This document shows, piece by piece, positions 15,264-39,334 of a stretch of DNA of 42,971 nucleotides (positions within the stretch are counted from its first letter, which is position 1; every line of letters starts with the position of its first letter). The notes beneath the pieces are model-generated. The model saw only the letters and a program-made list of their open reading frames with translations. It was not told where the DNA came from and ran no database searches. The stretch is from positions 1-42,971 of the forward strand of contig NZ_JAUSKL010000059.1 of NCBI RefSeq assembly GCF_030646925.1. Reading direction: 5' to 3'. The position numbers and the translations under genes were made by a program. The DNA comes from Candidatus Binatus sp. (GTDB lineage Bacteria; Desulfobacterota; Binatia; Binatales; Binataceae).

Positions 15264-15292
15264 CATCGATTGCACCAGCCAGGAGGTGTCAC

Positions 15293-25208: not shown

Positions 25209-26213
25209 CTAAGGCTGCTGGTGCGCAGCGACGGGCCGGCGCCCGTTGCGAGTGCTGCGTCCGATACCGGTCGCGAGCGAGATGCTGCTGCGCAGGCTTT
25301 TGAAGGGTTCACCTAGCGAGTGCGAGATCATGCGGACGCATCCGAGACAGCATCCTTCTTCACAGGGCTTGTGGCGATTGTTGCGCCGAAGTTCGGCCAG
25401 GTCCAACTCTGCCAGCGGGAATGAATAGTCGCGCTGCTGGGCGCACCATTGCACCGAGCCTTTGGAGTTAACGTACAGGAACTTGAAGCCCGCGAGACAC
25501 TTCCACTTTCTCGAAAAGTCGCCCAGCAGCATCTCCTGTAAGTGCTCGCCGTAGAAATTCATGCCCTCGAAGACGCCGTAGCGGCGCAGGATGCTGAGAA
25601 ACTTTTCGCCTCTGATCGCGAGGCGACCGCCGCGCCCGTGCATGATCGAAAAGCCAAAGGCGAACGGAAATTCCTTCAAGTGATCGCGGAAGCGATCATA
25701 ATCCGGCAGTGTTTCCTCGTTCAAAACGGTCTGGACTTCGACCTGGAACCTGGCGTGCGCGGCGAGCAGCTTCATCCGCGGCATCAGCGACTTGAGCGAC
25801 TTGACCGAGCGTGGGGTGGGCTCGATCGAATCAACCGATAGCTGCATGAAGTCGAGGCCGGAATCGTTGAGTCGCTCGATCACTCGCTCAGTCAGAAAGA
25901 AACCGTTGGTGATGACGGTCGTGACGTTCGACCCGCCGCGCTTGGTCTTGATATGCGCGATCAGCTCGGGCAGGCCAGGGTGCATAAGCGGTTCGCCGCC
26001 GAGCAGGTCGTACACCAACACGCCAAGCTGGTCGAGGTCGTCGATGCGAGTTTTCAGATCGGGCAGCGGGACGGTAGGTCCACCGGGCGTGTACTCGTCA
26101 CAATAGTCGCAGGTTAGATTGCAATCGTCGGTTACTACTACCTGAGCGTACATCGGGCGCGAGTCCAACACGCGCTTCGCGCCGGTTAGCAAGAATTGGC
26201 GATCGACCCCCAT
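25209..26213 (-). CDS. Radical SAM protein with SPASM-like C-terminal cysteines
   Basis: 334 residues from MGVDRQFLLTG; the ATG at 26213 was chosen because GAGGGAG stands just upstream. The [4Fe-4S]-SAM motif is CNLTCDYC (Cys31, Cys35, Cys38), followed by LLGGEPLMHPGL, the GGE block that contacts SAM. The C-terminus has KCLAGF, WCAQQ and a dense Cys group at 284, 288, 289 and 292, which could hold an auxiliary iron-sulfur cluster as in SPASM enzymes. The overall look is close to HpnH/MoaA/PqqE-type proteins. It is followed after 3 bases by the CDP-alcohol phosphatidyltransferase fusion, which suggests a role in making or modifying a polar lipid head group or tail. The reaction is unknown. Confidence 0.87.
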   Translation of the reverse strand: MGVDRQFLLTGAKRVLDSRPMYAQVVVTDDCNLTCDYCDEYTPGGPTVPLPDLKTRIDDLDQLGVLVYDLLGGEPLMHPGLPELIAHIKTKRGGSNVTTVITNGFFLTERVIERLNDSGLDFMQLSVDSIEPTPRSVKSLKSLMPRMKLLAAHARFQVEVQTVLNEETLPDYDRFRDHLKEFPFAFGFSIMHGRGGRLAIRGEKFLSILRRYGVFEGMNFYGEHLQEMLLGDFSRKWKCLAGFKFLYVNSKGSVQWCAQQRDYSFPLAELDLAELRRNNRHKPCEEGCCLGCVRMISHSLGEPFKSLRSSISLATGIGRSTRNGRRPVAAHQQP

Positions 26214-26319
26214 CGAAGCCCTCCCTCGGAAACAAAGTGCCGAAACTTCCGATGCAGATAGCACAGCAAGTTTATAAACGCATCTGGGTGGTCGAGAGGG
26301 TTGGCGCGGGAGCTCCCCG

Positions 26320-26337
26320 ACGTTTCACGTGAAACGT
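26320..26337. other. Predicted parS centromere site (ParB binding)
   Basis: A perfect 18-base palindrome, ACGTTTCACGTGAAACGT. Its central 14 bases (26322-26335, GTTTCACGTGAAAC) match the chromosomal parS core recognised by ParB in many phyla; the usual 16-base consensus is TGTTTCACGTGAAACA, so only the two outermost bases differ. It lies in the 172-base gap between the radical SAM gene and the ABC transporter gene. I saw no second copy in the window. parS sites usually cluster near oriC. Confidence 0.85.
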
Positions 26338-26385
26338 TCTGATGCGCACGATCATGGTGTAGAAAAAGGGTCGCCGATAGCGGCG

Positions 26386-28200
26386 TTATCGATACGCGGC
26401 GGCCTGGATTCCGTACAGTTCGGCGTACTGGCCGCCCTTCGCCATTAACGCTTCATGCGTGCCGACTTCGGCGACGCGCGCGCCGTCGAGCACGACGATC
26501 TGATCGGCCATCCGCACCGTGCTGAAGCGATGCGAGATCAGGATCGTGATGCGCCCATCGCGGCCGTTGCCGATGCCGCCATTATGCCCGCCGCCGCGAG
26601 CCGCCGCGGCGTAGCGCTCGAAGAGTGCGTGCTCGGTCTCGGCGTCGAGCGCCGCAGTCGGTTCGTCGAGTATCAGCAGCAGCGGATGATCGCGCATGAA
26701 GCCGCGCGCGAGTGCTAATTTCTGCCACTGGCCGAAGCTCACCTCGACTCCGTCGGGCCAGGTCGGACCAAGCTGCGTCTCGAGGCCCGCGGCGAGCCGC
26801 GCGATCACGTCGTCGGCGCCCGCGCGTTCGACCGCGGTGAGGACGGCCGCCTGATCGTAGAGTCGCGGAACGTCGCCGACGCCTACTGAGTGGCGCGCGC
26901 GAAACTCGAACTTAAAAAAATCCTGGAACGCGCCCGCGACGTGCGCCCGCCAATCCAGCGCTGGAATCCGCGCGAGATCGATTCCATCGACGAGGATTCG
27001 TCCGTGGTCAGGTTGATAGAGCCGCGCGAGCAGCTTGACCAGCGTGCTCTTGCCCGCGCCGTTCTCGCCGACGATCGCGACGACCGATCCCGGTTTCAGA
27101 TTCAGGTTCACGTCTTCGAGCACGTGGCGAGTCGTGCCGGGATACGCGAAGGAGACGTGTTCGAACCGGATTCCATCGACCAGCCGCTCGGGCGCCGGCG
27201 TGTCGGCATGCTCCTCCAGCGACGCGGCATAATCCTCCAGCCAGGCGAGACGTTTCGAGCCGTCGAGCCAGATGCCGCGCAGGAATCCGATCTCGCCGAC
27301 CGTCGCGCCGATATACGCCGACAGCCGCGAGCCCGCCGCCAGCACCAGCAGCACCTGTCCGGGCGTCGCGCGGAGATTCACCGTCACGAACACCACCGCG
27401 CCGATATAGCCGGCGCCGAAAATCAGCCACGCGATCGTATGCCATCCCGCGCTGCCCCATCGCGCCGACGCCACCGGCCCGTACCATCGCTCCCACGCCT
27501 CGCGCCGCAGTTTCACCAGCCGATTCCCGATCCGCGTGACGCGCACTTCTTTGCCGGGCGGCGCAGTGGTGGCGATGGTGAAGAGATGCCGCGCGAGCCG
27601 ATTCGCCGATGCGCCTTGTTCCTCCGCCGCGCGCTCGATACCGGGGCGCCATGTCGAAGTCAGCACAGTAGGCAGCGCGAACGCCGCGAGGAGCGCCAGC
27701 GCCGGATTGATCGACATCAGCAGCGCGACCGTCACGCCGAGCCGCAGAATCCATCCGCAGGTCGAGAACAGCGACATGTACATATGATCGAGCACGAACA
27801 CCTGGTCGCGCAGCACCGCGAGCCGATCGAGATACTCGGGGCGCTCATGATGAGCGATCGTTGCGACCGTGGCCTGCAGCCGCGCGACGTGCGACTCGAG
27901 CGCGATCGTCAGCCGATCGCGAAACCGGCGCTGGATACGGTCGCTCGTCACACGGAGAAACCAGGTGCCCACCGCCGACACGCCAAGCCCAATCGCGGCG
28001 GCGAACAACTCGGTGCGATGATGGCCCGTCACTCCGTCGGCCAGCAGCATCAGCCACAATGCCATCAGCGCGTCGGGCAGCGCCGACAGCAGCGACAGCC
28101 CGAACGCGACCGTCAGCAGGCGCGGCTCCGCTTGGTAGCCGCGCTTCAGCGCGCGCCACATCGCGGGTATCGCAGCCGGCAAATCGTCACGCGGGCTCAT
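26386..28200 (-). CDS. ABC exporter half-transporter with variant signature motif
   Basis: About 604 residues: an N-terminal membrane domain of about six helices (residues 30-320) fused to an ATPase. Walker A is GENGAGKS (378-385). The signature reads VSFGQ (487-491) instead of LSGGQ. Walker B is LLILDEP with Glu513 and the His loop is ISHRFST. The ATG at 28200 is chosen; the frame is open to 28236, but that would deepen the overlap with the gene upstream, and GGAGG lies about 12 bases before this start. It overlaps the preceding ABC gene by 14 bases, so the two are translated together and probably form a heterodimer that exports a lipid, peptide or drug. Confidence 0.88.
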   Translation of the reverse strand: MSPRDDLPAAIPAMWRALKRGYQAEPRLLTVAFGLSLLSALPDALMALWLMLLADGVTGHHRTELFAAAIGLGVSAVGTWFLRVTSDRIQRRFRDRLTIALESHVARLQATVATIAHHERPEYLDRLAVLRDQVFVLDHMYMSLFSTCGWILRLGVTVALLMSINPALALLAAFALPTVLTSTWRPGIERAAEEQGASANRLARHLFTIATTAPPGKEVRVTRIGNRLVKLRREAWERWYGPVASARWGSAGWHTIAWLIFGAGYIGAVVFVTVNLRATPGQVLLVLAAGSRLSAYIGATVGEIGFLRGIWLDGSKRLAWLEDYAASLEEHADTPAPERLVDGIRFEHVSFAYPGTTRHVLEDVNLNLKPGSVVAIVGENGAGKSTLVKLLARLYQPDHGRILVDGIDLARIPALDWRAHVAGAFQDFFKFEFRARHSVGVGDVPRLYDQAAVLTAVERAGADDVIARLAAGLETQLGPTWPDGVEVSFGQWQKLALARGFMRDHPLLLILDEPTAALDAETEHALFERYAAAARGGGHNGGIGNGRDGRITILISHRFSTVRMADQIVVLDGARVAEVGTHEALMAKGGQYAELYGIQAAAYR

Positions 28201-30004
28201 CGAGCGCGACACCTCCTTCCGCGTCGTCCGCGGCATCGGTGAAGCGCGACGCCTGCAACTCGAACATCGTGCGATAGCGTCCGCCGGCCGCCATCAACTC
28301 ATCATGCGTGCCGAGTTCGATCACGCGGCCGTGCTCGAGTACGCAGATGCGGTCCGCGTGACGCACGGTCGAGAATCGATGCGATATCAAGATCGTCGTC
28401 GCATGATGCGTCGCCTTCAGAATCCGCTCGAAGATTTCCTGCTCGCCGCGCACGTCGAGTTGCGCGGTCGGCTCGTCGAGCAGCACCACGCCCGCGCCTA
28501 GCCGCACCGAGCAGAGCGCCCGCGCGAGCGCGATTCGCTGCCATTGCCCGCCCGACAGATCGGTGCCGCCCGGGTAGCCGCGCGCGAGAATCGTATCGAG
28601 CGCTGCGAGACGTGACGCGCCGGCCTCAGCGAGCGCCTGCTCGATCTCGGCGTCGGGCGCTCCCTCAGGTGACACGTTGTCGCGGAGCGGCAACTCGAAC
28701 TTCGTGAAGTCCTGGAACACCGCCGTCACGCGCTCGCGCCACGCGTCGAGATCGATTTCCCGCAAATCGATCCCATCGATCTCGATTGCGCCTTCCTGCG
28801 GATCATAGAGCCGGCAGAGCAACTTCGCGAGCGTCGTTTTGCCCGCGCCGTTCTGGCCCACGATCGCGAGCGACGAGCCAGCGGGAATCGTCAAATCGAA
28901 ACCGTCGAGCACTGGCTCGCCGGTGGTTGGATAGGCGAAGCGCACGTTCCGAAACCGGATCTCCCGCGCCGGCATATTCGTCGCGGCTTGTTCGCCGCGC
29001 ACGAGATTGCCCGCCAGGGTCATCGCATCCTGCAGCCGCAGCACCGCGCCCGCCGGCGCCGACGCACCATCGAGCGCCCACGACAGTCCACCGAATGCGA
29101 TCATGCTCGTGCTGACCGCCGCGCTCGCGAAGGTGACGACTTGCCCCACCATGATACGTCCCGCCGCGGCGTCGCTCGCGATCGCCCAGAACACCAGCAG
29201 GTTCGCCGATAGCACGAGCAGCAGGCTCCAGAGCACTGGCCGCTCGCGCAGCCGCGTCGCCTCCCAGCGCAGATCGAACAGACGCCGCCGCCTCGACGTG
29301 AATCGCTCGATCGTCCATCCCGCGAGCCCGAACAGGCGCAGTTCCTTCGCCGCCGGCGGATCGACCGCGAGCCGGTATGCGTAGTCGGCGTGGCGCTGCG
29401 CCTCGCGAACCTCGTCAGTATTGCGATCGCGCCACACGCCGCTCTCCCGCAGCAGCCAATGCGTCGCGAGCCACGCGCCAGCGAGCAGAATCGGCGCCCA
29501 CCACGCATACGCGGCGAGCACCAACGCCGATAGCAGTCCGCCGACCATCTCGACCAGGCCCGACGCGATGAAGTCCATCGAGATACTCATCGGCGGTCCG
29601 CTGATTCCAAGATCGAAGTCGCGCGCCATCGCGAGGTCGGTCGTGAGTCGCGGGTCTTCGAGATGCCCCATGCCGGGCGGAGTGACGCAGGCGGTCGTCA
29701 ATTGATCGTAGAGCCACGCCGCAGTGCGGCTGCCGAGATTCGCGCCAACCGCATGATGAAGCGGCGGCAGGATCTGCAGCAGGACGAACACTGCGCCGAC
29801 GGCGAGCAGCGGCGCCGCGAGCGAATTGCCGCGCTGCACCGCGCCGACCAGCACGCCCATCGCGATCGCGAACAGCGCCGGCAACAGTCCGCGCAACCAG
29901 AGCGCGGCCCACCATGCGATCGCGAGCGCACGATCGGCTTGCAGCAAAACGCCGAGAAATTTCCACTCGGCGCGCGCTTTCAGGCGATCGATCATCGGCA
30001 TCAT
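28187..30004 (-). CDS. ABC exporter half-transporter with canonical ATPase motifs
   Basis: About 605 residues: membrane domain (residues 30-310) then ATPase. Walker A is GQNGAGKTT, the signature is LSGGQ, Walker B is VVLLDEP and the His loop is ISHRFST, so all ATPase motifs are intact. It pairs with the downstream gene, which has VSFGQ in the signature. In a heterodimer the two ATP sites would therefore differ, as in other asymmetric exporters. Several ATG and GTG codons near 29993-30007 could start; the first ATG, 30004, is used. It is the first gene of a two-gene operon, and the divergent BVMO gene begins about 220 bases upstream. Confidence 0.88.
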   Translation of the reverse strand: MMPMIDRLKARAEWKFLGVLLQADRALAIAWWAALWLRGLLPALFAIAMGVLVGAVQRGNSLAAPLLAVGAVFVLLQILPPLHHAVGANLGSRTAAWLYDQLTTACVTPPGMGHLEDPRLTTDLAMARDFDLGISGPPMSISMDFIASGLVEMVGGLLSALVLAAYAWWAPILLAGAWLATHWLLRESGVWRDRNTDEVREAQRHADYAYRLAVDPPAAKELRLFGLAGWTIERFTSRRRRLFDLRWEATRLRERPVLWSLLLVLSANLLVFWAIASDAAAGRIMVGQVVTFASAAVSTSMIAFGGLSWALDGASAPAGAVLRLQDAMTLAGNLVRGEQAATNMPAREIRFRNVRFAYPTTGEPVLDGFDLTIPAGSSLAIVGQNGAGKTTLAKLLCRLYDPQEGAIEIDGIDLREIDLDAWRERVTAVFQDFTKFELPLRDNVSPEGAPDAEIEQALAEAGASRLAALDTILARGYPGGTDLSGGQWQRIALARALCSVRLGAGVVLLDEPTAQLDVRGEQEIFERILKATHHATTILISHRFSTVRHADRICVLEHGRVIELGTHDELMAAGGRYRTMFELQASRFTDAADDAEGGVALDEPA

Positions 30005-36428: not shown

Positions 36429-37937
36429 TTACTCGAAGTGGATAAGATGACGCACCGAATCGCAGTATTCGAGCGCGTTCTGAAGCTGAGAATCGTTGTC
36501 GGCGTGGATCTCGAAAATCGGCTCGCCCCGCGTCACATTATCGCCCACGTTTTTATGCAGCTTCACCCCTGCAGAGACATTGGCCGGGGCGCCCGCGCGT
36601 TTTGCGATTCGCGATATTTCCCAGCAATCGATCTGCTGAATCCGGCCGCTTTGCTCCGCGGCAATCTGCCGCCGCACAGGCGCTTCGGGAGGCAGCTCGC
36701 GTCGTCCCTGCGCCGCCACGATTCGGTCGAACCTCGCGAGCGCGGCGCCCGAATCGAGAACCCGGCGTGCAGCCGCATAGCCGCGCGACGGCGGTTCGAC
36801 GCCCGTAATTTCGAGCAAACGTCCGGATAGCATCAGCGCCTTTTCGCGCAGATCCGCAGGTGCGCCCTGTTCGCATCGGAGGACGGAGAGCACGTCCAGC
36901 GCTTCCAATCGCGGCCCGATACCGTATCCGATCGGACCCAGCGCATGGGTTGTCACGATCTCCAGCCTGAGACCTATCCGCTCGGCCACGGCCCTGAACA
37001 ACCCTCCGACATGCTCGGCAAGTTCGAGTGTTCTGACTTTGGTCGAAGGTCCGACGGGGATGTCGATTAGCACGTGCGTCGCGCCGGCGGTCTTCTTTTT
37101 AGCGAGAATTGAGGCGACCATCTGCGCTTCCGTGTCGATCTCCATCGGGCGCTCGACCGTGATGAGAATGTCGTCCGCCGGCGCCAGCTCGAGTGCGCCA
37201 CCCCATGCGATGCAACCGCCGACTTCATCGACCACCCGGTACAGCCGTTCAGGCGAAAGCGCGACGTCGGCCAGTACCGCCATCGTATCGCCGGTGCCCG
37301 ACGGACTGGTGATCGCGCGCGAGGACGTTTTCGGAATCTTCAGTCCGAGTTCCGCGAGAATCGGCACAATGATCATGGTGGTTCTGTTGCCGGGAACACC
37401 GCCGATACAATGCTTGTCTGCTACAATCGGATCTGCGAACCTGAGCTGCTGGCCGGTTGCGATCATTGCGAGCGTGTAGTCCGTCAGCTCTGCCAGATCG
37501 ATTTTCTGAAGAGCACAACCCAGCACGAACATCGAAAGTTCGACGCGTGAATAACGCCGCGCCGCCACGTCGGCGAGGATCGCGTCGAAATCCTCGCGTC
37601 TGAGCCGTTTTCCGCGGAGCTTTGCCCTGACCAGATCCACGCTCCGCGGTGCGACGGCGAGACTTGCTCCTACCGCGGCGCCTTCAGGCAAGCCGAGATC
37701 GTGAAATGCTTCCTTCGACAGACCGATCTCGTCGGCTTCAAGCAAGTCGTCGCTGCAGATGTTCAGAACACCGGTAATTTCCCGCTGTTTGCCGGTTTCG
37801 CGATCGGCGCCGAAGACGCGCGCGCGATCGAGCGGACGCAAGCCGAGGTTTCCGTCATGCACGGCACGCTCGTGAATAATGATCACATGCTCGCGCATCG
37901 TATCGAGCGGCAGATGTCTCAGCCGAAAGTCCGTCAC
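36429..37937 (-). CDS. AMP phosphorylase / thymidine phosphorylase-like enzyme (long form)
   Basis: About 502 residues, the length of archaeal AMP phosphorylase and of the bacterial long-form thymidine phosphorylases, rather than the 440 of DeoA. The N-terminal 90 residues (FRLRHLPLDTMREHVIIIHERAVHDGNLGLRPLDRARV) are the extra domain of that group. The phosphate and nucleoside loops are DKHCIGGVPGNRTT (174-187) and SSRAITSPSGTGDTM (205-219). The reaction would release a base and make ribose 1-phosphate or ribose 1,5-bisphosphate from nucleosides or NMPs. The GTG start 5 bases after the nuclease stop is inferred from the domain start. No R15P isomerase or RuBisCO is seen in the window. Confidence 0.86.
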   Translation of the reverse strand: MTDFRLRHLPLDTMREHVIIIHERAVHDGNLGLRPLDRARVFGADRETGKQREITGVLNICSDDLLEADEIGLSKEAFHDLGLPEGAAVGASLAVAPRSVDLVRAKLRGKRLRREDFDAILADVAARRYSRVELSMFVLGCALQKIDLAELTDYTLAMIATGQQLRFADPIVADKHCIGGVPGNRTTMIIVPILAELGLKIPKTSSRAITSPSGTGDTMAVLADVALSPERLYRVVDEVGGCIAWGGALELAPADDILITVERPMEIDTEAQMVASILAKKKTAGATHVLIDIPVGPSTKVRTLELAEHVGGLFRAVAERIGLRLEIVTTHALGPIGYGIGPRLEALDVLSVLRCEQGAPADLREKALMLSGRLLEITGVEPPSRGYAAARRVLDSGAALARFDRIVAAQGRRELPPEAPVRRQIAAEQSGRIQQIDCWEISRIAKRAGAPANVSAGVKLHKNVGDNVTRGEPIFEIHADNDSQLQNALEYCDSVRHLIHFE

Positions 37938-37942
37938 AGTAG

Positions 37943-39334
37943 CTAGCCTATACGCACCTGTTCGAGATTGCGCGGCGCCACGGCGTTCCATCCCAGCTCA
38001 TGCACGATACGGGCGCGCAGAGCTTCGGACGCCGCTGGCGCGCCGTGGACGACATAAACTAATTGCGGCCGAACTTTAGCCTGCTTCAGCCAGTTTACGA
38101 TTTCGTTCTGATCGGCATGCGCGGAAAACGCGGGGACCTCGACCACTTCCGCAGACACCGGAACGTAGGCACCCAGCATCTTCACCATCTGAGCGCCCTC
38201 GAGCAAAGACCTGCCACGTGTGCCCTCGGTTTGATACCCGACCAGGATCACCGTGTTGCGGCGGTCGGGCAGCCGCCTCTTGAGATGATGAAGGACGCGG
38301 CCGCCCGACGCCATTCCCGACGCCGAGATGATTATCATCGGTCCCGGCATCGCGTTCAGCCGCATCGACTCTTCCACCGTTTTGATCTCAGTCAAATCCC
38401 GATCATTGAAGAAATTCCTGGTGTGCGCGATGTCATCGCGGATTTCGGGACTGCCGCGCTCGATCGAGTCTTCGTAAATCCTGAGCGCCGCTAGCGCCAT
38501 CGGGCTATCGACAAAAATTGGAACTCGCGGTATTCGGCCCGCGGCGCGCAGACCCGCCAAATGGTGCAGGACGACTTCGGTCCGATCAACTGCATATGAA
38601 GGAATCACGACTACGCCGCCGCGCTCCACGGTCTTTGCAATCGCGTCTGCGAACCGCTGAAGCGACGAAGTATCGTCATGAATCCGATCGCCGTAGGTGG
38701 ATTCGATCACGATCACTTCGGCCGCGGGAGGCGGTGCCGGAGGCCGCAGCAGTGGATGATATGGGCGGCCCAGATCGCCGGAAAAGAGCACTCGCCGGGC
38801 CGAATTTATCTCCAAACATATCAGCGACGACCCGAGGATATGCCCCGCGCGCAGAAAACGAGCGGTGATCGGACCCACCTCAACTTTTGCATCGAATTCG
38901 ACTGAGGAAAAATATCCGAGCGAATTCCATGCGTCGCTTTCGCGATAAAGGGGCAGGGCGGGAGAGTGCTTGGAGTATCCTTTCAAGTTCGCGTAGTCGG
39001 CCTCTTCCTCCTGCAGATGGCCGCTGTCGGGCAGCAGGATCCGACACAGCGCCTGTGTGCCGGGTGACGAAATCACCTTGCCGCGGAAGCCGTCACGCAC
39101 CAGGCGAGGAATAAACCCGCTATGGTCCAGGTGTGCGTGCGTCAGCAGGACAGCGTCAATAGCCCTCGCATCCAGCGGCAACGGTTCCCAGTTCATCAGG
39201 CGCAGTTGCTTGAGACCCTGGAACAAACCGCAATCCACCAGTACCCGATGGTCACCGAAGGTAAGCAGAAACTTGCTGCCGGTGACAGTGCCGGCAGCAC
39301 CCAGAAACCTGAGTATTGGAGCGGGCGCGGTCAC
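37943..39334 (-). CDS. Beta-CASP metallo-beta-lactamase fold nuclease (RNase J/CPSF-like)
   Basis: 463 residues. Metal site HAHLDH (66-71), beta-CASP features FVDSPMA and SASGMASGGRVLHHLKRRLPD, and the C-terminal RMMBL-type FSAHADQNEI. The family cleaves RNA with one or two zinc ions. The start MTAPAPILRFLGAAGTVTGS matches the normal family N-terminus. It is the first gene of a pair with the AMP-phosphorylase-like gene, 5 bases apart. In several bacteria these two occur together in oxygen- or energy-stress gene clusters (from memory), where they could recycle RNA-derived nucleotides. Confidence 0.92.
   Translation of the reverse strand: MTAPAPILRFLGAAGTVTGSKFLLTFGDHRVLVDCGLFQGLKQLRLMNWEPLPLDARAIDAVLLTHAHLDHSGFIPRLVRDGFRGKVISSPGTQALCRILLPDSGHLQEEEADYANLKGYSKHSPALPLYRESDAWNSLGYFSSVEFDAKVEVGPITARFLRAGHILGSSLICLEINSARRVLFSGDLGRPYHPLLRPPAPPPAAEVIVIESTYGDRIHDDTSSLQRFADAIAKTVERGGVVVIPSYAVDRTEVVLHHLAGLRAAGRIPRVPIFVDSPMALAALRIYEDSIERGSPEIRDDIAHTRNFFNDRDLTEIKTVEESMRLNAMPGPMIIISASGMASGGRVLHHLKRRLPDRRNTVILVGYQTEGTRGRSLLEGAQMVKMLGAYVPVSAEVVEVPAFSAHADQNEIVNWLKQAKVRPQLVYVVHGAPAASEALRARIVHELGWNAVAPRNLEQVRIG

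Follow-up and report, generated by a model that had tools for sequence, protein, structure and literature searches.

A perfect parS palindrome as a probable ParB loading site in a Binatus lineage with dispersed parS sites

We propose that a perfect 18-base palindrome, ACGTTTCACGTGAAACGT, at positions 26320-26337 (no strand assigned) of the window, which is the whole 42,971-nucleotide stretch analyzed and corresponds to contig C59 of the 4.58-Mb, 126-contig draft genome of Candidatus Binatus sp. (G000), is probably a genuine site of ParB loading and that parS sites are dispersed in this lineage. The 24 perfect sites of this genome would be distributed along the chromosome and not restricted to a compact cluster at the origin, and for the two statements jointly we estimate a probability of roughly 0.75. 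By its sequence the palindrome is a parS site of a chromosomal ParABS system, as its 14-base core (26322-26335) matches the palindrome GTTTCACGTGAAAC, which we take to be the parS consensus, and the bases at 26319-26321 and 26336-26338 fit the outer pattern R-A-Y / R-T-Y that most of 131 exact sites share. The core is the sole match in the window with 0 to 2 mismatches, a single match with 3 mismatches being found at 15286, and an order-3 Markov model built from the sequence fetched for this genome gives expectations for the window of 0.0002 cores and 6e-7 18-mers. The original prediction had placed a perfect palindrome at exactly these positions, identified its core as the ParB-binding core and considered a chance match very unlikely, and on all three points it is borne out, the identity of the core by sequence and by its recurrence at the genome's own parAB genes.

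Genome-wide there are 24 perfect cores, with 0.02 expected under an order-3 Markov model, and 11 more with 1 or 2 mismatches, or 35 within 2 mismatches in total. A backward-read control pattern occurs 4 times within 2 mismatches in G000 and has no exact occurrence in any of 58 genomes, and a chance match is rejected on the basis of this control and the Markov expectation. Contig C69 carries mnmG, rsmG, parA, and parB in that order, and seven perfect cores and one with a single mismatch precede parA, forming the densest parS cluster of the genome. The parA gene was assigned from its position and sequence, without a family scan, and the ParB protein matches ParB_N (E 3.9e-30) as well as solved ParB/Spo0J chains. 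A ParB relative is present in 57 of the 58 genomes and an SMC hinge is found in this one. The absence of ParB, which the original prediction had named as evidence against itself, is not what we observe. Three weak further ParB_N matches (25.8-26.8 bits) are located on contigs C14, C22, and C53 (L012-L014) of G000. Among 131 exact sites from eight genomes, of which 34 belong to par loci, positions -2 and +15, which lay outside the searched core, are occupied by A in 128 and by T in 124 cases, respectively.

Because the genome's own parAB locus has the same core, ParB loading at the window site is naturally expected, and to this extent the prediction of a ParB-loaded domain is supported. In other species it is established that ParB loads as a CTP clamp, slides and recruits SMC. 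By analogy, a dimer of the ParB encoded on C69 would recognize the palindrome and load there, the loaded protein would slide onto neighboring DNA as a CTP clamp, and it may recruit the SMC condensin. If the sites are dispersed, several such ParB domains per chromosome would be expected.

The window site is intergenic: an ABC transporter gene (26386-28236, minus strand, Pfam PF00005) stops about 50 bases away, and on the other side an adjoining radical SAM gene (25209-26264, minus strand, Pfam PF04055, start codon uncertain) begins, the site being upstream of this second gene. At E 1e-60 a close relative of the radical SAM gene is present in no more than 2 of 41 family genomes, its own genome counted, and the ABC gene has one good congeneric match, in G002, where a 3112-base stretch contains no parS-like sequence with up to 3 mismatches. 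Contig C59 could not be placed via these neighbors, as the radical SAM gene is too rare and the ABC match lies on a 7-kb contig. Other genes in the window encode, among others, CoA-transferases, a thiolase-like protein, luciferase-like monooxygenases, and a P450. Among the 28 window proteins scanned against Pfam, drawn from 95 mechanically called open reading frames of at least 120 amino acids, none matches the ParA, ParB, DnaA, or MnmG families, in agreement with the earlier statements that the origin and par genes are outside the window and that the site is away from the par operon, which is on C69 and not on C59. An unusual-looking pair, a 520-residue nucleoside-phosphorylase-type protein adjoining a beta-CASP metallo-hydrolase, is encoded at 36429-39334.

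The 24 exact sites of G000 fall into 14 clusters, one per contig on 14 contigs. The minimal arc of chromosome that must contain all exact sites can be calculated, independently of contig order, as the summed length of the site-bearing contigs minus the two largest outer flanks, a bound that presumes correct binning and a single chromosome. For G000 this arc is 0.93 of 4.58 Mb (at least 20%), and for relatives, whose genome sizes are rounded, it is 1.69 of 3.4 Mb in G013 (at least 50%), 1.51 of 3.9 Mb in G026 (at least 39%), 0.92 of 3.7 Mb in G005, 0.80 of 3.7 Mb in G006, and 0.90 of 4.5 Mb in G003, with only 0.13 Mb in G001. Confinement to the origin region is therefore not found in G013 and G026, and since the bound is only 0.13 Mb in G001 and only 20% in G000, origin confinement is possible in some genomes. 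The assemblies are drafts of metagenome type in which misbinning could bring in foreign contigs (G000 has a stated contamination of 3.5%); the composition of the site-bearing stretches is broadly alike, with contig C14 of G026 as an outlier. There is no single-contig assembly among the 41 family genomes, and GC skew together with the polarity of GGGNAGGG in 41 sampled stretches of G013 placed neither origin nor terminus (forward/reverse counts of 2/17 on C20, 19/2 on C19, 14/3 on C32, 12/6 on C14, and 5/5 on C25). We infer that the sites of G000 extend over most of its chromosome. The genome-wide scan with up to 2 mismatches thus revealed the many scattered copies that the original prediction had itself named as counting against it, and its origin-proximal part is unsupported, as the 24 perfect copies on 14 contigs take up an arc of at least 20% of this chromosome and those of a relative at least half of its own. 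Since the sites spread widely in this bacterium and in some relatives, the window palindrome is no proof of origin proximity, and contig C59 may happen to lie near the origin even with dispersed sites.

The number of sites differs greatly within the family. Exact sites number 9-29 in ten of 36 family members and 0-6 in the other 26, and 22 genomes from other families of the class have 0-3 each; as exact sites alone were counted, the low counts in relatives are lower bounds. Regions around the sites were fetched for eight genomes (G000, G001, G003, G004, G005, G006, G013, and G026), with G002, G027, and G029 (9-16 sites each) left out, and regions were regarded as counterparts if at least two reading frames within 6 kb of the sites were shared at 45% identity or more. 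The par locus is recognized in this way in seven of the eight genomes, and for 16 of 78 dispersed regions a counterpart with parS is found: 2 of 13 in G000, 3 of 16 in G003, 3 of 9 in G005, 3 of 7 in G006, 2 of 3 in G001, and all 3 in G004, together with 0 of 12 in G013 and 0 of 15 in G026, which are little informative since the set contains no congener of either. One position, for example, is common to four genomes (contigs C18 of G005, C37 of G006, C11 of G004, and C152 of G003), and there is one apparent empty site, on C30 of G001, the counterpart of the C5 region of G005 without its parS element, for which the downstream anchor is strong (1575 bases, 91%) and the upstream one weak (38 bases of repeat). 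A codon classifier designates 94 of 97 dispersed sites as noncoding, compared with 1239 of 3000 positions drawn at random from the fetched loci, and is wrong for at least the C18 site of G005, where parS is in the frame of a CcmH gene, and probably also for its counterparts in G006, G004, and G003. At that site (L057 4844-5428) the palindrome is inside the CcmH gene and is read as VSRET near the N-terminal end of the protein.

The flanks of the dispersed sites are often repeated within a genome. With parS cores masked and a match defined as at least 14 of 16 bases shared with a flank from a different region of that genome, 96 of 194 dispersed flanks and 6 of 68 par-locus flanks are matched, compared with 0 after shuffling; an unmasked version, run without G004, gave 110 of 188 and 8 of 68 and counted neighboring parS cores. 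The matched dispersed flanks amount to 15 of 18 in G005, 24 of 30 in G026, 24 of 52 in G003, 7 of 14 in G006, 5 of 10 in G001, 3 of 6 in G004, 10 of 30 in G013, and 8 of 34 in G000. All six matched par-locus flanks are from G000, where they represent 6 of 14, and repeated flanks in that genome are therefore not special to dispersed sites. Within the genus, TCTCCTGAACT has 29 occurrences no more than 100 nt from an exact parS and 2 farther away, in the 712 kb fetched around sites, and G026 has another repeated flank beside parS. Boxes like CCTGTGGATA, which we take to resemble DnaA boxes, occur about 30 nt from dispersed parS sites in 10 of 12 regions of G013 (loci L070, L073, and L075-L082), often as pairs about 21 bp apart. 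These motif patterns were chosen after reading the same flanks and are descriptive, not a test, and the G013 pattern also matched the par locus of that genome. Alignments of three flank groups reveal blocks of similarity without clear element ends, and the flanks of the window site have no repeat match (best 0.62 over 16 bases). We infer that parS was dispersed through short parS-carrying elements, of which the window copy bears no trace. A short intergenic repeat unrelated to parS, at about 5106-5318 of L054, has copies in G001, G004, and G006, with at least dozens per genome.

Transposons of the IS1595 family, with both ends and exact 8-bp target duplications, adjoin parS at five sites, on contigs C24 of G000 (21 nt from the parS core), C65 of G003 (8 nt), and C5, C14, and C30 of G026 (31 nt each). 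These elements have the DDE_Tnp_IS1595 domain, inverted ends, and an 8-bp duplication. Their ends were located by an end motif together with the duplication, an earlier search for IS ends having given nothing convincing. Of the eight rows obtained, that at 5046-9339 of L110 (C14 of G026) was read as a tandem pair of two different elements with the same 8-bp duplication, AAACAGTT, and that on C25 of G013 was dropped, its 'duplication' being one base at the locus end. On C46 of G000 one element end lies about 12 nt from a pair of parS sites, and the other end was not found. There are 28 transposase copies (31 matches with fragments merged), eight of them at parS-adjacent places: 2 of 10 in G000, 1 of 7 in G003, 0 of 2 in G005, and 5 of 9 in G026. 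Three of the five in G026 are on C14, where one is on the other side of parS with its gene start 89 nt away. At the other transposase loci, about 1.5 kb to each side of the copy contains no core even with 1 mismatch allowed, except for C124 of G000, where two perfect cores are about 450 nt or more from the transposase copy. As parS is outside the element ends, the IS1595 elements settled next to parS and were not what carried it there, and no IS1595 element was found at the window site.

Three other explanations have to be weighed against a dispersed set of ParB loading sites. We regard it as unlikely that the sites, and contig C59 with them, are all within the origin-proximal fifth of the chromosome, although most species keep parS there according to a review (PMC7022226), the densest cluster of this genome is at its own par locus, and the strict bound of 0.93 Mb about equals 20%. 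The relatives far exceed a 20% domain, and when 14 clusters were placed at random on contigs whose lengths were partly drawn at random, each cluster had a contig to itself in 1 of 6000 trials for such a domain, in 6% when half of the chromosome was open to them and in 24% when all of it was. Even in this last case the site-bearing contigs of the simulation reach the observed total of 1.11 Mb or more in only 1.4% of trials, which means that the contig-length model is imperfect. It is very improbable that the palindrome is the operator of a local transcription factor of the radical SAM or ABC gene and merely resembles parS: an intergenic site upstream of the radical SAM start would suit an operator, but the same core and outer bases recur at the genome's par locus and, beside unrelated genes, at 23 other positions.

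A further possibility agrees with our preferred reading on binding and differs on function, namely that the dispersed sites are a by-product, in which parS rides along with short repeats or persists through drift and is bound by ParB to no purpose. We consider this somewhat unlikely. The repeated flanks, the apparent empty site on C30 of G001, the small share of dispersed regions with a parS-bearing counterpart (16 of 78), and the range from 0 to 29 sites within one family all point toward it. It fits less well with the near-perfect palindrome and outer bases at the dispersed sites, though the selection of exact cores favors that result, with the window site, which has no repeat flank, and with sites common to several species, such as the one in G005, G006, G004, and G003.

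If the distal sites are occupied, the lineage represents a marked variant of chromosomal ParABS. More tentatively, it is conceivable that the chromosomal centromere of this family has become diffuse, in that parS is multiplied and moved by short elements that carry it along with partner motifs particular to each lineage (the paired DnaA-box-like boxes in G013), that ParB and SMC load at many points of the chromosome, and that IS1595 transposons use parS, or the ParB on it, as a landing mark. A lineage with many dispersed sites would make testable both the folding and segregation of such a chromosome and the spread of parS like a mobile element, and a lone parS site is an unsafe marker of origin proximity. 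According to PMC5815017, segregation in Caulobacter suffers when an additional parS cluster lies far from the native one, and PMC8357415 calls wide scattering counterproductive for avoiding SMC collisions.

Within the open-licence literature we found neither repeat-borne parS nor transposons at parS described. IS1595 family members produce 8-bp duplications, as stated in PMC8101967, and the elements seen here share the domain, inverted ends, and 8-bp duplications, with several copies ending 8-31 nt from parS as neighbors and not as carriers. The origin-clustered systems of Caulobacter crescentus and Pseudomonas aeruginosa have the same core, parAB beside mnmG-rsmG, and a dense cluster at the par locus, whereas here further sites extend over at least 20-50% of the chromosome. 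The review cited above (PMC7022226) places by far most parS sites in the 20% around oriC, and according to PMC5815017 Caulobacter tolerates a second parS cluster mainly where it lies within about 500 kb of the native one, with mid-arm positions disfavored. Wide scattering is described in PMC8357415 as restricted to few lineages, and the same source gives eight parS sites over about 0.75 Mb for Bacillus subtilis. Bacillus subtilis and other Bacilli likewise have multiple single sites away from the par locus, but the genomes studied here differ from them in the wider spread in G013 and G026, in more copies, in the large differences between related genera, and in the shared flank elements.
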